Positions 45,017-55,025 of a stretch of DNA of 64,000 nt are shown piece after piece. The stretch's first letter is position 1, and each line of letters opens with the position of its first letter. The translations under genes and the position numbers were made by a program. The notes beneath the pieces are model-generated. The model was not told the DNA's origin. It made no database searches and saw only the letters and a program-made list of their open reading frames with translations. This stretch comes from Rhodohalobacter sp. SW132 (GTDB lineage Bacteria; Bacteroidota; Rhodothermia; Balneolales; Balneolaceae), in the NCBI RefSeq assembly GCF_003390325.1, contig NZ_QUOK01000002.1, forward strand, positions 434,001-498,000. The letters are read 5' to 3'.

Positions 45017-45595
45017 TTACGTCGCCCAGGTACGGCCCACCTCTTCTAAAGGCATGCACCCGTCATACATACCGGGATTTGCCTCATACCGAAGAACTTG
45101 CGTTGCTCCCACTTCAGAAGTAAAATAGCCGAGCATTGTCAGTTCTTTGAAAGTAAGAATAAACGGACTCTCACCGGGGCTTTCCTCAATGGCAATGCGG
45201 TTTTGGTGATAGGTAAAATCGTACTTCTCATCATCCGTGCCATCAAAATATTCGCCCTGGATTTCTGTTCTGTATTCATCGGCGAACCTATCCAGTCCAT
45301 CTAAAAACTGGTTGCGCTGTTCTTCGCTGTAATGATCTTTCACCATCGTTTCGATAAACTGTGGTACACCTACCTCACTCGCTGACGGTGTGTCATCAGC
45401 CGGCAGGATCACATCAGAAAGTGCGGTGACAACCCGTGCTTGTTCAGCAGAAAAAAGCTCCGGGTCCCAGCCTCCCGGCGTTGGCGAGCACCCTTTTAGA
45501 ACTCCCAGAATATTCGGCGCAAAAATCACACCTCCAAGGAGTAACCCGGTTCGTTTAATTGCTTCTTTTCTGTTCATTCCGCTTTCGTTACTCAT
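45017..45595 (-). CDS. gluconate 2-dehydrogenase subunit 3-type protein
   Basis: 192 residues. The N-terminal segment MNRKEAIKRTGLLLGGVIFAPNILG resembles a Tat-type signal but has RK instead of RR. The mature region holds LFSAEQARVVTALSDVILPADDTPSASEVGVPQFI, the hallmark of the gluconate_2-dh3 family. These small subunits accompany GMC-type flavoprotein dehydrogenases and help their export or assembly. It starts one base after the GMC oxidoreductase stop, so the two form a functional pair. Confidence 0.92.
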   Translation of the reverse strand: MSNESGMNRKEAIKRTGLLLGGVIFAPNILGVLKGCSPTPGGWDPELFSAEQARVVTALSDVILPADDTPSASEVGVPQFIETMVKDHYSEEQRNQFLDGLDRFADEYRTEIQGEYFDGTDDEKYDFTYHQNRIAIEESPGESPFILTFKELTMLGYFTSEVGATQVLRYEANPGMYDGCMPLEEVGRTWAT

Positions 45596-45596
45596 C

Positions 45597-47294
45597 TTAG
45601 AGATCTCCTTTTTTGATTTGTTCTGCAGCGTAATTAGCAGCCCTGGCTGAAAGAGCCATATAGGTTAAAGATGGATTCTGGCACGCAGCTGAGGTCATGC
45701 AGGACCCGTCCGTTATAAATACATTCGGAACGGTATGAATTTGGTTCCATTCACCAAGAACAGATGTTTGAGGATCGCGTCCCATTCGGGCTGTTCCCAT
45801 TTCGTGAATACCAAGACCAGGACCGCCGGCATCATCATACGTGCTTACATTTTTCATACCGGCCGCTTCAAGCATTTCGGCTGCGTCATTTTTCATATCC
45901 TCACGCATTTTATATTCATTCTCTTTGAATTCAACGTCAAAGACAACGGTAGGCTGACCCCATTTGTCAGTTTCATCATGGTTCAGCCACATTCGGTTGC
46001 TGTGATCGGGAAGCATTTCACCGAAAGCGGTCATCCCAAGCGTCCATTTCCCGGGCGTAGATACAAGATTTTTGAGCTCTGAACCTATCGCCAGTTCGCG
46101 AACACCCCGATGCCACCCTTCGCGACTTGCACTTCCCTGGTAGCCAAATCCACGCAGGTAATCTCTGTCGTTCCCGTTGATATTTCTGAAACGGGGAATA
46201 TAGAAGCCGTTGGGTCGCCTTCCGTAGTAGTAGCGGTCTTCAAATCCATCCATCTCGCCATTTGCACCCACACGAAAGTGGTGATCCATCATATTGTGAC
46301 CCAGTTCGCCGGAGTCGTTGCCCATTCCATCCGGAAAACGATCGGAAGTGGAGTTCATTAATATAGATGTGGAATTGACGGTAGACGCATTCAGAAAAAT
46401 AATTCGGGCATAATATTCATACATTTCACCCGATTCCGCATCTACAACCCGTACACCGGTCGCCTTGCCTGTTTCTTCATCATACATTACGGAATTTACA
46501 ATTGAATGCGGCCGGAGTGTCATATTCCCGGTTCGCTCAGCGGCAGGAAGAGTTGAAGCGTTACTGCTGAAATAAGCACCGTAAGGACATCCCCTGCTAC
46601 AAAGGTTTCGATACATGCAGCTGCCTCTTCCTTGATGAGACCGGGTAAGATTTGCTACACGGCCGGTGGTAAGAACACGATCAAACGTTTCTGCCATAGA
46701 TTCTCGCAATGCCTCTTCAACGCAGTTGAGTTCCATGGGCGGAAGAAATTCACTATCTGGCAGCTGAGGAAGTCCAAGCGCCTCACCACAAATTCCGGCG
46801 AATTTTTCGACATGAGAATACCAGGGTTCAAGGTCTTCATACCGGATGGGCCAATCTACAGCAATTCCTTCCCGGGCATTGGCTTCGAAATCCATCGGTG
46901 AAAGTCGATAACTATGTCTGCCCCACATAATCGAACGTCCGCCCACATGGTAGCCCCGAATCCAGTCGAACCGTTTTCTCTCCTCGTAGGGCTGATCGGT
47001 ATCCCGAATCCACCAATGTTTTGTGGATTCACGAATTGTGTAACCCGTGCGCAGCTGTTTTTCATAGTGCTTCCGTTCCTCATAAGGAACCTGATCATTG
47101 GGGGGAAGTTCCCAGGGATCAAGTGTTGCAGTAGGGTAATCATCGATATGTTTCACATCTCTTCCACGTTCCAGTACCAGTGTCTCAAGGCCGTTTTCTG
47201 TTAGCTCCTTAGCAGACCATCCTCCGCTGATACCGGTTCCTACAACAATTGCGTCGTATGTGTTTTCTTCGCGGGCTTTAATATTTAGATTCAT
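45597..47294 (-). CDS. GMC-family oxidoreductase
   Basis: 565 residues. The FAD loop VVGTGISGGWSAKELTENGLETLVLERG opens the protein. RSIMWGRHSYRL and GCPYGAYFSSNASTLP are in the middle, and IHEMGTARMG plus CQNPSLTYMALSARAA near the C-terminus, as in GMC_oxred_C. With the small subunit at 45017 it forms the class of membrane or periplasmic sugar 3-dehydrogenases. The electron acceptor is not encoded here. Its likely substrate is a sugar or sugar alcohol imported or handled by the SusC/D system across the regulatory gap. Confidence 0.93.
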   Translation of the reverse strand: MNLNIKAREENTYDAIVVGTGISGGWSAKELTENGLETLVLERGRDVKHIDDYPTATLDPWELPPNDQVPYEERKHYEKQLRTGYTIRESTKHWWIRDTDQPYEERKRFDWIRGYHVGGRSIMWGRHSYRLSPMDFEANAREGIAVDWPIRYEDLEPWYSHVEKFAGICGEALGLPQLPDSEFLPPMELNCVEEALRESMAETFDRVLTTGRVANLTRSHQGRGSCMYRNLCSRGCPYGAYFSSNASTLPAAERTGNMTLRPHSIVNSVMYDEETGKATGVRVVDAESGEMYEYYARIIFLNASTVNSTSILMNSTSDRFPDGMGNDSGELGHNMMDHHFRVGANGEMDGFEDRYYYGRRPNGFYIPRFRNINGNDRDYLRGFGYQGSASREGWHRGVRELAIGSELKNLVSTPGKWTLGMTAFGEMLPDHSNRMWLNHDETDKWGQPTVVFDVEFKENEYKMREDMKNDAAEMLEAAGMKNVSTYDDAGGPGLGIHEMGTARMGRDPQTSVLGEWNQIHTVPNVFITDGSCMTSAACQNPSLTYMALSARAANYAAEQIKKGDL

Positions 47295-47369
47295 TCGTTT
47301 TTCTTCTGCGTTATATGGTTTACCGTTTAGGTGCGCTGAAAGCGCTGCCAGTCAAATCAATAAATTATA

Positions 47370-48134
47370 CTACAATTCTCTGATTTTTATATTTCTGAAT
47401 TTCACAATATCTCCATGATCCTGAAGGCCGATATGACCGTTCCGGATCGCACCAAACTCCGGATAACATTGAAATTTGCTTTCGTGGAGCATATTGAACC
47501 AGTCTTCCGTCCATCGCTCATACTCTAAAACTTTTTCCCCATTCTGCCAGTGCTCAACCACAGGTCCGTCAGACACAATTTTTATAGAATTCCACTCACC
47601 GAAAGGATTCGTATTTTGAGGATTTGCCGGAATCAAATCATACAGTGAACCGGCTTTTCGGTTTCCATCCACTCCTTGTGCAGCATCGGGATGATTTTCA
47701 TTATCGAGGATTTGCATTTCGGGGCCTGACCAGTAAATTTCGCGTTCCTGCTCTAAAACGTGATAAAAGATGCCGCTATTGCCTCCCTCCTCTACCATCC
47801 ACTCGAGTTTAAATTCAAAATCAGTGTAGGTTTCCCGGGTGATGATATCGAGACCTTGTGATTGATTCTCAACCGTTGATGGCTGGAATTGCAGAAGCCC
47901 ATTTTCAATTTGCCAGCCTTGCTGAGGAAAACGATCCATATTGTATCCCCGCCATAAATCTGCGTTTTCTCCATCAAACAGGAGTTTCCATCCCTCTTCA
48001 ATTTCCTGTTCTGAAAGCTGGTTCATATCCGGGTTTGTTGAGTGGGAAAAACCTCTGCTGTCACTGCAGGCATATACAATTACCGCAGCTAATAGAATTA
48101 AAACTGATGGATAAAACGGTACGTATGAGTTCAT
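47370..48134 (-). CDS. DUF1080 (3-keto-disaccharide hydrolase-like) lipoprotein
   Basis: 254 residues. A lipoprotein signal (VLILLAAVIVYAC) is followed by the DUF1080 beta-sandwich: EIEEGWKLLFDGENADLWRGY, FEFKLEWMVEEGGNSGIFYHV, GPEMQILDNENHPDA, and WNSIKIVSDGPVVEHWQNG. DUF1080 proteins are linked to 3-keto-glycoside cleavage. With the GMC/subunit-3 pair downstream (47294 and 45595) the set fits a 3-keto-sugar degradation route. Expression starts from the 0.8 kb region shared with susC. Confidence 0.9.
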   Translation of the reverse strand: MNSYVPFYPSVLILLAAVIVYACSDSRGFSHSTNPDMNQLSEQEIEEGWKLLFDGENADLWRGYNMDRFPQQGWQIENGLLQFQPSTVENQSQGLDIITRETYTDFEFKLEWMVEEGGNSGIFYHVLEQEREIYWSGPEMQILDNENHPDAAQGVDGNRKAGSLYDLIPANPQNTNPFGEWNSIKIVSDGPVVEHWQNGEKVLEYERWTEDWFNMLHESKFQCYPEFGAIRNGHIGLQDHGDIVKFRNIKIREL

Positions 48135-48945: not shown

Positions 48946-51900
48946 ATGAAGTTAAAATATCTACTAAGTATAGTACTGCTCTTTGGATTCTGCGCAATGG
49001 CCTCCCAGGCTTTTGCACAGACAGACCACCGAGTCAGTGGAACGGTTACCGAAGCAGGTACAGATGCTCCGTTACCCGGCGTAAATATTGTGGTTCAGGG
49101 TCAGCCTGAACGCGGCACATCTACAAATATCAACGGTGAATACTCCATTCAAGTGGCACCAGATGAAGTTCTCGTCTTCAGTTTCCTTGGATTTGTGCGC
49201 CAGGAAATCCCAATTGATGGCCGTGAAACGATCGATGTGGCGATGCAGGAAGATATTGCCGAACTCGAAGGCCTCGTGGTTATTGGTTATGGCGTGCAGC
49301 AGCGCGGAGATAATACAGGTTCCGTGAGCACCATCAGTTCCCGCGATTTTAACCAGGGAGCGATTACTTCCCCTGAAGATCTCTTCCAGGGCCGTTCAGC
49401 CGGTGTAAACGTAACATCTAACAGTGGAGCTCCCGGCGCAGGTGCAACTATCCGTATTCGCGGCGGTTCATCACTCTCGGCCAGTAATGATCCTCTTTAC
49501 GTAGTAGATGGAGTCCCTCTGGATGACGGCGGAATCGCTGGAATGAGAAGCCCGCTCAACTCCATCAACCCGAACGATATTGAATCGATCACCGTCCTGA
49601 AAGATGCATCAGCTACCGCTATTTACGGTTCCCGTGCATCCAACGGTGTGATTATCATTACCACAAAACGTGGAGAAAGCGGTCAGCCGCTGCAGGTAGA
49701 CTATTCCGGACGGTTCTCTTATCAAACCAATACCGACAGAATTGGAGTACTTGATGCCGATGAGTACAGAGAATTTGTTGAACAAAGTGTCGCTGAAGGA
49801 CGCATCAGTGCTAACGCGCTCGATATACTTGGCGATGCAAATACAAACTGGCAGGATGAAATTTTCCGGAACGCATTTTCACAGGATCACAACATCAGTG
49901 TTGCAGGCTCCTATGGTGATTTCCCTTACCGGGTTTCTTTAGGTTTCTCTGGAAATCAGGGCGTACTTCGAACCTCATCAAACGACCGCCTGACTGGTTC
50001 GGTTGCGCTGACTCCTACCTTCTTTGAAGATCAGCTGAGTGTAGATCTGAACTTCCGTGGAATGCGGGTAGATAACCGTTTTGCAGATCAGGGATCTATC
50101 GGGTCAGCTATTTCATACGATCCAACACAGCCCGTACGATTCTTTGATGAAGACGGAGATGTTATGGAAGACCGATTTGGAGGCTATTACACGTGGCTGG
50201 ATGCAGATGGTAATCCTATTTCCATTGCACCGTCTAACCCATTGTCTCTGATCAATCAAAGACAGGATGAGTCTACGGTATACCGCTCTATTGGTAACCT
50301 GAAACTGGATTATACACCAGACTTTTTCCCAAATCTTACCGCAACCATTAGTGCTGGTTACGACTATTCAGATGTAGGTAATGGAGAAGTTGTAGTGTCA
50401 GATCAGGCGGCATTCGCATTTGACGGAAGCGGATTCTCCGGTGAGCGTACTGACTACGATCAGAGAAAAGAGAATGAACTGCTGGATATCTACTTCAATT
50501 ATGATACGTTCCTCCCTGCTCTCGACAGTGAACTGGACCTTACAGCAGGATACTCGTGGGAACACCACTACGAACGGGGATCTACATTTTCCACAAACTT
50601 CGATCGTTCAGCGGATGAAGTTCAGGTGAATACAGATACCGACTATGCTACTGAATACTACATTGTATCATTCTTTGGGCGGGCAAACTACTCACTCTTC
50701 GACCGATACCTGTTCACCGGTACACTCCGGTACGACGGAACTTCCCGGTTTTCTGAAGATAACCGATGGGGTCTTTTCCCTTCATTTGCCTTCGCCTGGA
50801 AATTGCATGAAGAGAACTTCCTCTCCGATTTTGATCGCCTGAGTGAACTGAAACTGCGTCTTGGTTACGGTGTAACCGGTCAGCAGCGAATTGGCCAGGG
50901 TAATTACCCATACCTTCCTCAATACACATTCAGTGAAAATACAGCGCGTTATCCATTCGGAAATGAGTTCATCACAACACTTCGGCCTGAAGGATACAAT
51001 GCTGGCCTGAAATGGGAAGAAACCACAACCTACAACGTAGGTCTGGATTACAGTTTCAACGACGAACAGATTTTTGGTTCTGTTGAATACTTCTACCGTC
51101 AAACAGACGACCTTCTCAACGTGATCCCGGTACCTGCGGGAACTAACTTCACAAACCGTATCCTCTCTAACGTAGGAACCCTGGACGTGCAAGGTTTGGA
51201 ATTCGACATTACAACACGTCTGATCTCAACAGAAGACACTTTCTGGCAGGTAACCTTTAATACTACCTACACGATTGATGAAATCACCAGACTAACAACT
51301 GTTGACGACCCGAACTATCTCGGTGTTGAAGTTGGAGGAATTGCAGGTGGTACGGGTAACACTGTCCAGGTTCACAGTGTCGGGCATCCAAGAAGTGCAT
51401 TCTTTGTATATGAACAGGTATATGATAACGATGGAAACCCAATCGAAGGTCTTTATGTTGACAGGAATGGCGATGGCGTCATTGATGAAAACGATAAATA
51501 TCGCTTCAAGAGCCCGAACGCAGACTGGACATTTGGCCTCTCTTCCCGTTATGAGTATCAAAACTGGGACGCATCGTTCTCTGCCCGTGCAAGTTTTGGA
51601 AACTACGTTTATAACAACGTAGCGTCTGATAACGCAATCGTAAGCCAGACTTTCAACAACACCGGGTTTTTAACGAATCCAACCAGTTATGTAAGAGATA
51701 CGAACTTTACAAATGCCCAGTATCGAACCGACCACTTTGTTGAGGATGGATCGTTCTTGAGATTGGACAATGTCTCCGTAGGATACAGATTTGAAAATCT
51801 GCTCAATACTGCGACCTCCATGAGGGTATCAGCTACTGTTCAGAATGTATTTACTCTAACAGAGTATAGCGGGCAGGATCCCGAAGTGTTTGGCGGAATT

Positions 51901-51960
51901 GACTACAATCTCTATCCACGACCAAGAACATTTGTGTTGGGACTCAATCTCAACTTTTAA
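48946..51960 (+). CDS. SusC/RagA-family TonB-linked outer membrane transporter
   Basis: 1004 residues. Signal peptide (MASQAFAQ), then a carboxypeptidase-regulatory-like domain (SGTVTEAGTDAPLPGVNIVVQG) and a TonB-box-like LEGLVVIGYG. The plug domain contains IRIRGGSSLSASNDPLYVVDGVPL and DASATAIYGSRASNGVIIITTK, and a 22-strand barrel ends with aromatic F (LNLNF). It imports large nutrients, probably oligosaccharides, across the outer membrane together with SusD. Its promoter region holds the operator-like cluster. Confidence 0.97.
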   Translation: MKLKYLLSIVLLFGFCAMASQAFAQTDHRVSGTVTEAGTDAPLPGVNIVVQGQPERGTSTNINGEYSIQVAPDEVLVFSFLGFVRQEIPIDGRETIDVAMQEDIAELEGLVVIGYGVQQRGDNTGSVSTISSRDFNQGAITSPEDLFQGRSAGVNVTSNSGAPGAGATIRIRGGSSLSASNDPLYVVDGVPLDDGGIAGMRSPLNSINPNDIESITVLKDASATAIYGSRASNGVIIITTKRGESGQPLQVDYSGRFSYQTNTDRIGVLDADEYREFVEQSVAEGRISANALDILGDANTNWQDEIFRNAFSQDHNISVAGSYGDFPYRVSLGFSGNQGVLRTSSNDRLTGSVALTPTFFEDQLSVDLNFRGMRVDNRFADQGSIGSAISYDPTQPVRFFDEDGDVMEDRFGGYYTWLDADGNPISIAPSNPLSLINQRQDESTVYRSIGNLKLDYTPDFFPNLTATISAGYDYSDVGNGEVVVSDQAAFAFDGSGFSGERTDYDQRKENELLDIYFNYDTFLPALDSELDLTAGYSWEHHYERGSTFSTNFDRSADEVQVNTDTDYATEYYIVSFFGRANYSLFDRYLFTGTLRYDGTSRFSEDNRWGLFPSFAFAWKLHEENFLSDFDRLSELKLRLGYGVTGQQRIGQGNYPYLPQYTFSENTARYPFGNEFITTLRPEGYNAGLKWEETTTYNVGLDYSFNDEQIFGSVEYFYRQTDDLLNVIPVPAGTNFTNRILSNVGTLDVQGLEFDITTRLISTEDTFWQVTFNTTYTIDEITRLTTVDDPNYLGVEVGGIAGGTGNTVQVHSVGHPRSAFFVYEQVYDNDGNPIEGLYVDRNGDGVIDENDKYRFKSPNADWTFGLSSRYEYQNWDASFSARASFGNYVYNNVASDNAIVSQTFNNTGFLTNPTSYVRDTNFTNAQYRTDHFVEDGSFLRLDNVSVGYRFENLLNTATSMRVSATVQNVFTLTEYSGQDPEVFGGIDYNLYPRPRTFVLGLNLNF

Positions 51961-51976: not shown

Positions 51977-53896
51977 ATGAAGATTATGTTTAACAAAGAA
52001 TTAAAAATTGCAGCATTTGTATTACTGGCGCTTACCGTTGCGTTCGCTACAGTCTCTTGTGTGGATAGTTTGAATACCTCACCGATTGACGACAGCGTAG
52101 TTACATCTGCTGATGTGTATGATACTCCTGACGATTTTCGCCAGGTTTTAGCAAAATTATATGCCGGATTTTCAGCAACTGGCCAGCAGGGCCCCGCCGG
52201 AATGCCGGACATTCAGGGAATTGATGAAGGCTTTTCAAGTTACATTCGTCAATATTTTGTGCACCAGGTTCTCACCACAGATGAGGGTGTAGTTGCCTGG
52301 AACGATCCCGGTCTCCCGGAATTTAATTTCCACTCATGGGGTGCATCGAATGACTTTGTGATGGGAATGTATAGCCGGATTTTTTACGAAGTGACCCTCA
52401 CGAATGAATTTATTCGTGAAACACAGCAGCGCAACGAAGATGTGATTCGGGGTTACGAAGCGGAAGCCCGGTTTTTAAGAGCTCTCAGCTATTGGCACGC
52501 ACTTGATTTGTACGGCGGAAATGTGCCGTTTACAACAGAAGCCGACCCGATTGGCGCATACATGCCAAATCCTACAACTCCGGAAGATCTGTTCAGCTAC
52601 ATTGAAAGTGAACTGATTGATATTCTGGATGAACTTCCTGCGCCAGGTCAAAATGACTACGGCCGTGCCGATCGTGGTGCAGCCTGGACACTCCTCTCCA
52701 AGCTCTACCTGAATGCGGAAGTATATATCGGTGAAAACCGTGCAACAGACGCACTCACATACGCAGAACTTGTGATCGACGAGGGCGGATATCAGCTCGA
52801 TGAAAATTATGAGTACCTTTTCCTTGCAGATAATGACCAGGCAGATGGCATCATCTTCCCTATTCGGTTTGATGGTGACAATTTGCAAACATTTGGCGGA
52901 ACCAACTTTATTATTCATGCTGCCATCGGCGGAAGCATGAGCGCAAGCTCATTCGGTATGGATGGCGGATGGGCCGGCCACAGGGTAACTCCTGAGTTCG
53001 TTTCTATCTTTGGCGATACCGGAGATCGGTTTTCAGGTTTTGAAACTGAAAACACCGGAAACTATCCAACCATTTATGTACCGGGTGGTTACCAGGCTGC
53101 CAGCGGATATGGCAACGACTGGTCACCGGGCGAAGCTCCTGCACTGATTTCACAAAACAGTGACGATGTATACACCGGCCAGGTCTATTTTGCTAATGCT
53201 GGAGTTCCCTTTAAATTCACAGCCGAAAGTAACTGGGATGCCGGTGACTGGGGTGGTGAAGATGGTGAACTGGATAGCGCAGGTGACGATCTGATTATTC
53301 CACAGGCAGGTTTGCATACCATTGTTGTGGATCTTAATGAGATGACCTACAGCGTAACACCGGCCGAACGACGTGCCATGTTCCACACAGACGGTCAGAC
53401 TCTCGAAATTAATGACTGGCGTACGTTCAACGACGGATTTGCCGTCACGAAATGGAAAAACGTAACGCGCACCGGAGAGCCCGGAAAGCGACTCGAATAC
53501 GCTGATACTGATTTTCCAAAGTTCCGACTTGCCGATGTCTACCTGATGTATGCTGAAGCAACACTCCGGGGTGCCACCGGCGGCGACGAAACCCGTGCGG
53601 TAAACCTGGTTAATCAACTCAGGGAACGAGCATACGGAAACGACATTGCGAATATCACGGCAGGAGAACTCGACCTTGACTTTATCCTCGATGAGCGTGC
53701 CAGGGAACTCTACTGGGAAGGCCACAGAAGAACCGATCTTAGAAGATTCGGCCAATATACTGGCAATGAGTACGTATGGTCCTGGAAAGGAAACCAACAG
53801 GAAGGAACCGGAACAAATCAGCGATATGAGATCTTCCCGATCCCGTCTTCTGATATCAATTCCAACCTGAACCTGACACAGAACCCAGGCTACTAA
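51977..53896 (+). CDS. SusD/RagB-family nutrient-binding lipoprotein with inserted SusE/F-like module
   Basis: 639 residues, about 100 longer than most SusD proteins. The signal ends ATVSC (Cys28 lipid site). SusD helices with the TPR-like pattern are seen (RGYEAEARFLRALSYWHALDLYG; RADRGAAWTLLSKLYLNAEVY). Residues ~365-462 carry an extra beta-rich segment resembling the starch-binding domains of SusE/F, which interrupts the usual C-terminal half. The SusD part then resumes (FPKFRLADVYLMYAEATLRG; LDFILDERARELYWEGHRRTDLRRFG). The gene is 16 bases after susC. Confidence 0.95.
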   Translation: MKIMFNKELKIAAFVLLALTVAFATVSCVDSLNTSPIDDSVVTSADVYDTPDDFRQVLAKLYAGFSATGQQGPAGMPDIQGIDEGFSSYIRQYFVHQVLTTDEGVVAWNDPGLPEFNFHSWGASNDFVMGMYSRIFYEVTLTNEFIRETQQRNEDVIRGYEAEARFLRALSYWHALDLYGGNVPFTTEADPIGAYMPNPTTPEDLFSYIESELIDILDELPAPGQNDYGRADRGAAWTLLSKLYLNAEVYIGENRATDALTYAELVIDEGGYQLDENYEYLFLADNDQADGIIFPIRFDGDNLQTFGGTNFIIHAAIGGSMSASSFGMDGGWAGHRVTPEFVSIFGDTGDRFSGFETENTGNYPTIYVPGGYQAASGYGNDWSPGEAPALISQNSDDVYTGQVYFANAGVPFKFTAESNWDAGDWGGEDGELDSAGDDLIIPQAGLHTIVVDLNEMTYSVTPAERRAMFHTDGQTLEINDWRTFNDGFAVTKWKNVTRTGEPGKRLEYADTDFPKFRLADVYLMYAEATLRGATGGDETRAVNLVNQLRERAYGNDIANITAGELDLDFILDERARELYWEGHRRTDLRRFGQYTGNEYVWSWKGNQQEGTGTNQRYEIFPIPSSDINSNLNLTQNPGY

Positions 53897-53924: not shown

Positions 53925-55025
53925 ATGAAAAAATTAATTATATCAACAATTGCGATTCTTGGCCTGCTGGTCTTCACCTCGTGTGAAGACTCGGTAGGGC
54001 CCACGATCAATTCCGATGGAAGCTCTCCTGCCCTTACATCACATAGTGGTGGCGAAAGTTTTGTACTCAACGAGGAGGAAGCAGATGATGAATTGTTCAC
54101 CCTCTCGTGGGACGCACCGGATTACGGGTTCTCGGCTGCTGTAACCTATACCATCCAGATGGATGCAGACAACAGCGGATTCGAAAATCCTGTTACATTT
54201 GCTGAAACAACCCAAACATCCATCACGATGACGGTAGGTGAAGTAAATGCTATTCTGCTTGATGCCGGCCTCCCATTTAGCGAGGAGACAACCGTAGATA
54301 TGAGAATTCGTGCTCATGTAAACGATTCAGTTGAAGACCGATATTCGGATGTCTTCACACTTGGTTTCACACCATACGAAACCGAAGTAGATGTCACATT
54401 TCCCGAAGAGCTCTTCATGATTGGAAACAGCGTGGGCGGCTGGGATTGGGGCGCCGTTGATCTGCCGATGATTCCGGTATACGATAAACCACATCTGTTC
54501 TGGAAAATCGTATGGATTGAAGCTGGTGTTGATGATCCGGGATATAAGTTTGCTCCCGAACAGGATTGGGGCAATGATTTTGGATACAACGGTGAAGCAC
54601 CCGTTGACGGCGTCGTTGAGTTTGGAGGTGATAACATGCCAGAACCTGAAGAATCAGGCTATTACATGGTTGTTGTAAACTATGAAACAGAAGAGATTGC
54701 CGTTGTTGATCCGCAGGTTTACCTGATCGGTGAAACCGTGGGAAGCTGGGATACCGCAAACCAGGATGCACGTTTTGACGTGGACAACGAAAACGAACTC
54801 CTGACAATCACCCGGGAGCTCAATTCTGAAGAACTCAGGATGTATGCCTGGTATGATGGCGGCTGGTTCACCGACTGGTGGCAGTCAGAGTTTATGATCT
54901 TCGGTGGCGAAATTGAATTTCGCGGTACCGGGGGCGACCAGGATCGCGTCAACATCAGTCCTGCCGGTGAATATACAATTGAACTGGATTTCAGAAATAA
55001 CACAGGATCCGTTCAGCAGCAGTAA
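53925..55025 (+). CDS. SusE-domain outer membrane lipoprotein with SusF-like binding modules
   Basis: 366 residues. Lipoprotein signal ends LLVFTSC (Cys20). An N-terminal SusE Ig-like domain (FTLSWDAPDYGFSAAVTYTIQMDADNSGF) is followed by two tandem modules of about 95 residues. Each starts ...LFMIGNSVGGW or VYLIGETVGSW, and the first contains KFAPEQDWGNDFG and GYYMVVVNYET. These bind oligosaccharides on the cell surface. It is 28 bases after the susD-like gene and closes the operon before a terminator. Confidence 0.92.
   Translation: MKKLIISTIAILGLLVFTSCEDSVGPTINSDGSSPALTSHSGGESFVLNEEEADDELFTLSWDAPDYGFSAAVTYTIQMDADNSGFENPVTFAETTQTSITMTVGEVNAILLDAGLPFSEETTVDMRIRAHVNDSVEDRYSDVFTLGFTPYETEVDVTFPEELFMIGNSVGGWDWGAVDLPMIPVYDKPHLFWKIVWIEAGVDDPGYKFAPEQDWGNDFGYNGEAPVDGVVEFGGDNMPEPEESGYYMVVVNYETEEIAVVDPQVYLIGETVGSWDTANQDARFDVDNENELLTITRELNSEELRMYAWYDGGWFTDWWQSEFMIFGGEIEFRGTGGDQDRVNISPAGEYTIELDFRNNTGSVQQQ

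Follow-up and report, generated by a model that had tools for sequence, protein, structure and literature searches.

A SusD-like protein of Rhodohalobacter sp. SW132 with an inserted SusE/SusF-type module, and the recurrence of insertions at the same SusD site

The stretch of DNA analysed here (the window; 64,000 nucleotides) comprises positions 434001-498000 of contig 2 of the 5.08 Mb genome of Rhodohalobacter sp. SW132, and contains consecutive genes for a SusC-like transporter, a SusD-like protein and a SusE-like protein, all on the forward strand (Table 1). The susD-like gene starts directly after the end of susC. The open reading frame of 639 codons reported in a preliminary description of the locus was verified, and the sequence strings quoted from it are present. 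The nearest named orthologues of the SusD-like protein are from Rhodohalobacter, Gracilimonas and Fodinibius/Aliifodinibius (family Balneolaceae). Divergently upstream of susC (45017-48134, reverse strand) are predicted genes for a GMC-type oxidoreductase, a small partner protein and a DUF1080-like lipoprotein, which possibly form a sugar oxidation set.

Table 1. Features of the susCDE locus (positions in the window).
Feature	Position	Strand	Basis
SusC-like TonB-dependent transporter of 1004 aa that pairs with the SusD-like lid	48946..51960	+	TIGR04056 OMP_RagA_SusC, E 8e-229
SusD-like protein (predicted outer-membrane lipoprotein), 639 aa, SusE-type module inside	51977..53896	+	PF07980; 3JYS fold match
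SusD body, N-terminal part, residues 1-350; holds R91, W108, F306, W332	51977..53026	+	Alignment to 3JYS and 3CK7; 96 orthologues
Inserted segment, residues 351-463; linker and module	53027..53365	+	Gap in nine Balneolaceae orthologues and 3JYS
Beta-sandwich module of SusE/SusF (X25) type, residues 364-462; W382, W420 and K413 in the platform	53066..53362	+	Profiles; AF2
SusD body, C-terminal part, residues 464-639	53366..53893	+	Alignment to uninserted orthologues and 3JYS
SusE-like lipoprotein, 366 aa	53925..55025	+	PF14292 SusE, E 4e-25; PF16411 SusF_SusE, E 1e-22
SusE module 1, divergent, classical SusE/F type	54390..54716	+	Sequence/profile comparison
SusE module 2, WWQSEF-type as in SusF	54717..55022	+	Sequence comparison

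The SusD-like protein matches PF07980 (SusD_RagB) with an E-value of 6.8e-38 (131 bits; cut-off 23.1), and its top family model is the NCBIfam starch SusD (E 1e-128). Its hydrophobic N-terminus ends in a lipobox (VSC28) whose cysteine, C28, is invariant in 96 orthologues, and the protein is predicted to be an outer-membrane lipoprotein. Alignment to PDB entry 3JYS covers residues 48-350 and 464-639 and skips residues 351-463, and the C-terminal SusD part has 61-70% identity to orthologues that have no insert. An AF2 model built from the 96 orthologues (pLDDT 90.4, pTM 0.87), which replaced a model built from 20 sequences (pLDDT 60.8), superimposes on 3JYS with a Z-score of 51.9 and an rmsd of 1.6 Å over 461 aligned residues, and on maltoheptaose-bound SusD with a Z-score of 49.0 (1.7 Å), the SusD match spanning residues 43 to 639; the SusD fold thus resumes on both sides of the inserted segment, as the preliminary description had proposed. 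Among the matches listed by a fold search with the whole model were SusD chains only, which informs on the SusD body and not on the insert. The PF14292 SusE N-terminal domain was absent from the SusD-like protein in a Pfam search and was found in the next gene; the protein should thus be classed as a SusD that carries a SusE module, and not as a SusE.

We take the glycan-binding arc of SusD to consist of W98, Y296 and W320, together with R81. The equivalents by alignment are W108, F306, W332 and R91, and among the 96 orthologues R91 is conserved in all 96, W108 in 92, an aromatic residue at position 306 in 94, and W332 in 95. The SusD of Bacteroides thetaiotaomicron (3CK7-3CKC) and the Bacteroides vulgatus protein 3JYS share the full SusD fold with the window protein (Z 49-52, 36-41% identity), and the aromatic arc, the arginine and the adjacency to SusC are all kept in the window protein; however, both reference proteins are without the beta module of 100 residues, SusD having a longer loop at that place and 3JYS crossing it directly.

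Across 92 Balneolaceae genomes, 12 full-length carriers of the insert were identified, counting the window protein, and a further nine orthologues, from eight genomes, are uninserted (lengths of ~525 aa, with flanks 60-74% identical). The orthologue alignment shows a sharp indel of ~113 residues between residues 350 and 464 and no other change there. The SusD loop that received the insert starts ~18 residues past W332, the last aromatic residue of the SusD glycan site, and the insert consists of a short linker followed by a module that begins with IYVPGGYQ. This module had been placed at residues 365-462 (53069-53362) in the preliminary description, within one residue of the extent measured here. 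The possibility that the open reading frame is a chimera created by assembly or annotation is practically nil and is refuted, given that the frame is unbroken in many independently assembled genomes, that the insert is present in cultured Rhodohalobacter halophilus, Gracilimonas amylolytica, Fodinibius halophilus and Lutimonas, and that dN is well below dS in the insert; nothing was found in its favour.

The insert is related to the modules of SusE proteins encoded just downstream of susD in relatives, with identities of 50-62% and E-values down to 8e-34; to module 1 of these SusE proteins the identity is 47-61%. By profile-profile comparison (hhalign), the Balneolaceae inserts match the first SusE module of these relatives (M1) with an E-value of 9e-50 and 58% identity, the second module (M2) with an E-value of 5e-14, and the window-type SusE module with an E-value of 6.3e-6 (probability 85%); in a control comparison with the SusE N-terminal domain there was no match (probability 0.3%). 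The likeness to the neighbouring SusE module claimed in the preliminary description is thus weak by pairwise comparison (BLASTP, E 0.019) and real by profile. A search of the whole genome with the module profile gave two matches only, with E-values of 1e-44 for the insert itself and 5e-6 for the adjacent SusE. With the Pfam SusF_SusE model, the window insert reaches 27.0 bits (E 6.6e-6), 0.5 below the cut-off of 27.5 bits, and two of the orthologous inserts examined clear that cut-off (37.9 and 58.4 bits); the X25 profile gives 20.6 bits on the window insert and 29.5 bits, above cut-off, on an orthologous insert. Against the PDB, the module profile matches the X25 domain of pullulanase 2WAN and SusF (4FE9), followed by SusE and Sca5 (7RPY) with weak scores. 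X25 modules are beta-sandwiches of ~120 residues that occur in tandem in SusE and SusF (PMC9112005), and in the AF2 model residues 365-462 are a separate all-beta unit with strands at 365-367, 389-391, 398-405, 423-428, 431-434, 445-452 and 457-462. These findings indicate that the insert holds one complete SusE/SusF (X25-type) module within an intact SusD fold. It matches SusE/SusF (4FE9, 4FEM), pullulanase 2WAN and Sca5/Sas20 (7RPY) in profile, predicted all-beta fold and Trp/Lys platform; whereas SusE/SusF and X25 modules sit in tandem in binding lipoproteins, enzymes and scaffoldins, the insert sits inside a SusD lid.

It could be argued that nothing more than a common SusD loop, specific to the lineage and unrelated to SusE/SusF, is present, since B. 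thetaiotaomicron SusD is longer by ~45 residues at this site, two Flavobacterium SusD proteins carry there an unrelated and unrecognised segment of ~80 residues, such that the site tolerates loops, and the BLASTP match to the window SusE is marginal. We consider this very improbable: the insert has 50-62% identity to the SusE modules of sister operons, its similarity to them is far above background by profile, the match is unique genome-wide, and the insert is predicted to fold as an independent all-beta domain beside a SusD body that matches solved SusD structures. Readings as an ordinary loop or as chance similarity were refuted by the profile comparison with its negative control and by the whole-genome search.

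In regard to the donor of the module, the preliminary description had proposed a transplant within the operon. The origin from a SusE-type module is upheld, but the present neighbour is not the donor: the window's own SusE was rejected as a direct source, its modules being of a divergent type, and in the module tree the insert clusters with the M1 modules of sister operons. Because of the divergence of the window SusE, the predicted donor is an ancestral SusE of the same operon type, with a module of the M1 type found in sister operons. The window SusE has classical SusF-like modules (WWQSEF), as do the SusE proteins of two other genomes (G042 and G059); in most sister operons SusE is of the M1 + M2 type, and in G018 and G015 it is of a third type. 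Swapping of modules in SusE seems to be frequent at this locus.

All 11 aligned inserts have both W382 and W420, and equivalents of the Trp and Lys residues are also invariant in flavobacterial inserts. In an alignment with the Sca5 X25 module (7RPY), K413 corresponds to K654 and W420 to W661, the offset in Sca5 numbering being set by both residues; a match of W382 to W509 is two columns off and is tentative. In Sca5, K654 contacts sugar and W661 is essential for maltooligosaccharide binding, and mutation of the Sas20 equivalent led to loss of binding (PMC9112005). Based on the key residues kept in both, the SusD arc and the Trp platform of the module both look competent for glycan binding. 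From these conserved residues and the published binding by X25 modules we infer two glycan-binding surfaces, as the preliminary description had envisaged. Against a binding role for the module, single Sca5 X25 modules bound only as a tandem pair and not alone; single SusF modules bind weakly (~300 uM) (PMC9112005).

Alternatively, the module could be a spacer or a protein-protein docking element that keeps SusE, SusC or an amylase close to the lid, and not a glycan binder. According to the title of Foley (2018), B. thetaiotaomicron SusE aids uptake independently of starch binding; the rim of SusC is where surface glycan-binding proteins (SGBPs) and enzymes assemble (PMC7618045); and evolution is faster in the insert than in the SusD body, which favours docking and counts against a glycan tether. 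We nevertheless consider docking unlikely, in view of the invariance of the Trp/Trp platform in all 11 aligned inserts and of the equivalent Trp and Lys residues in the flavobacterial ones, and of the role of the related X25 fold as a starch binder (PMC9112005).

The glycan is likely an alpha-glucan, on the basis of the starch SusD top match and of the operons of relatives, which encode GH13 amylases that bear type IX secretion tails, regulators of the LacI type, a cyclomaltodextrinase and a SusG_C amylase. Against this, no amylase gene adjoins the susCDE genes of the window, the nearest in the assembly being ~60 kb away. Some Fodinibius carry this locus, and Fodinibius species have been reported as unable to hydrolyse starch (PMC9909488); this counts against starch as the substrate, such that maltodextrin or another alpha-glucan is possible.

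The insert is present beyond the window genome in other Balneolaceae, and related inserts occupy the same site in Flavobacteriaceae and Saprospiraceae. Among 105 orthologues, drawn from one-genome-per-species contigs and a phylum sample, 28 are longer by over 60 residues at this position of SusD: Balneolaceae inserts contain one M1 module (n = 12), flavobacterial inserts, including that of Lutimonas, contain one M2-type module with a different linker (n = 9), and saprospiraceal inserts contain M1 then M2, in the order found in SusE (n = 5), in addition to the unrelated segments of the two Flavobacterium proteins. On the SusD tree, the insert state requires 8 changes. The Balneolaceae inserts form one clade among M1 modules (94/98; 99/96 without long branches) and have a common linker that is unseen in SusE, although grouping of the SusD backbones of the carriers is rejected (AU p 8e-5); thus, a single capture in Balneolaceae followed by loss or exchange is likely. 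That the M2 inserts of Flavobacteriaceae and Saprospiraceae form a single clade is rejected by AU tests, with p 0.033 when all rows are included and 0.0035 once long branches are removed. Of the nine flavobacterial inserts, eight fall within SusE modules from flavobacteria (support 99/94). Together, these results support at least two captures of SusE modules at this site, and three or more are likely.

A different history would be one ancient insertion of M1 + M2, with later loss of M2 in Balneolaceae and of M1 in Flavobacteriaceae, and no repeated captures. The insertion site is identical throughout, Saprospiraceae retain both modules in SusE order, the linkers before M1 are alike (T-x-N-x-G), and a joint Balneolaceae and Saprospiraceae M1 clade, while not the best tree, is not rejected (AU p 0.23 and 0.12). 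The rejection of the joint M2 clade, the nesting of the flavobacterial inserts and the number of changes on the SusD tree speak against a single origin, to which we assign a rather low probability. More broadly, the SusD loop may be a recurrent landing site, with SusE modules, singly or as a pair, having been transferred into the lid independently in at least three Bacteroidota/Balneolota lineages, and with some saprospiraceal lids having replaced SusE; this we put forward tentatively, at slightly less than even confidence.

We consider it probable that the window protein is a lid that captured a SusE-type X25 module, in a SusCD importer for alpha-glucan (starch/maltodextrin-type), with the module acting as a tether. 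In the pedal-bin importer, SusD serves as the lid (PMC7782687), and SGBPs grapple polysaccharide near the lid (PMC7618045). In the scheme proposed here, a copy of the module, from the susE gene that follows susD in operons of this type, would have entered the SusD loop and would hold polysaccharide beside the transporter mouth, and the aromatic arc of SusD would bind oligosaccharide for import. We infer that the module binds glycan, that this glycan is an alpha-glucan, and that such binding aids glycan capture. The SusG alpha-amylase offers the nearest proven parallel, having a starch-binding module (CBM58) in a loop of its B domain with the host fold undisturbed (PMC5735674), although there the host is an enzyme and not a lid, and the module family differs; removal of CBM58 from SusG raised activity on soluble starch and lowered activity on insoluble starch (PMC11267923, PMC5735674). 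In levan and dextran utilisomes, a glycan-grappling domain is likewise located near SusD and the transporter mouth, on the SusC rim, but as a separate lipoprotein (SGBP), whereas that of the window protein is a covalent part of the lid; how SGBPs hand glycan over to SusCD is disputed, with stable utilisomes set against transient, substrate-driven assemblies (PMC7618045). Among the open-licence papers searched, none was found to describe a SusE/X25 module inserted into a SusD; this combination and its repeated occurrence at a single site appear to be new, the parts and their logic being known. A built-in binding module forces a 1:1 link of tether to gate. Some sister species have the insert and others do not, in proteins that are otherwise near-identical; they constitute a natural experiment on whether lid tethering alters the capture of long or insoluble glycans, and the recurrently used loop marks a SusD site where a module can be added with the lid unbroken.

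Insert presence has no clean pattern with loss of the neighbouring susE, as many uninserted loci are also without a recognisable adjacent SusE. The SusE N-terminal domain was not found anywhere in the genomes of four of the five double-insert Saprospiraceae, and in the fifth it is encoded in the next gene; in the four, the lid may have absorbed the SusE modules. The loci of these four genomes (L098, L099, L178 and L179) encode SusD proteins of 727-737 aa with a SusE M1 + M2 pair. In L178 and L179, a GH53 galactanase gene adjoins susD; the substrate of these double-insert systems may be galactan, and the specificity of the module therefore need not be for alpha-glucan everywhere. In the two Flavobacterium SusD proteins with the ~80-residue segment (L172:3814-5655 and L173:4286-6127), the equivalent of F306 is glycine. 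Upstream of susC in L099, a gene (1161-2924) encodes a secreted protein with five SusE-type modules and a type IX secretion tail, possibly a soluble or surface glycan-binding protein.
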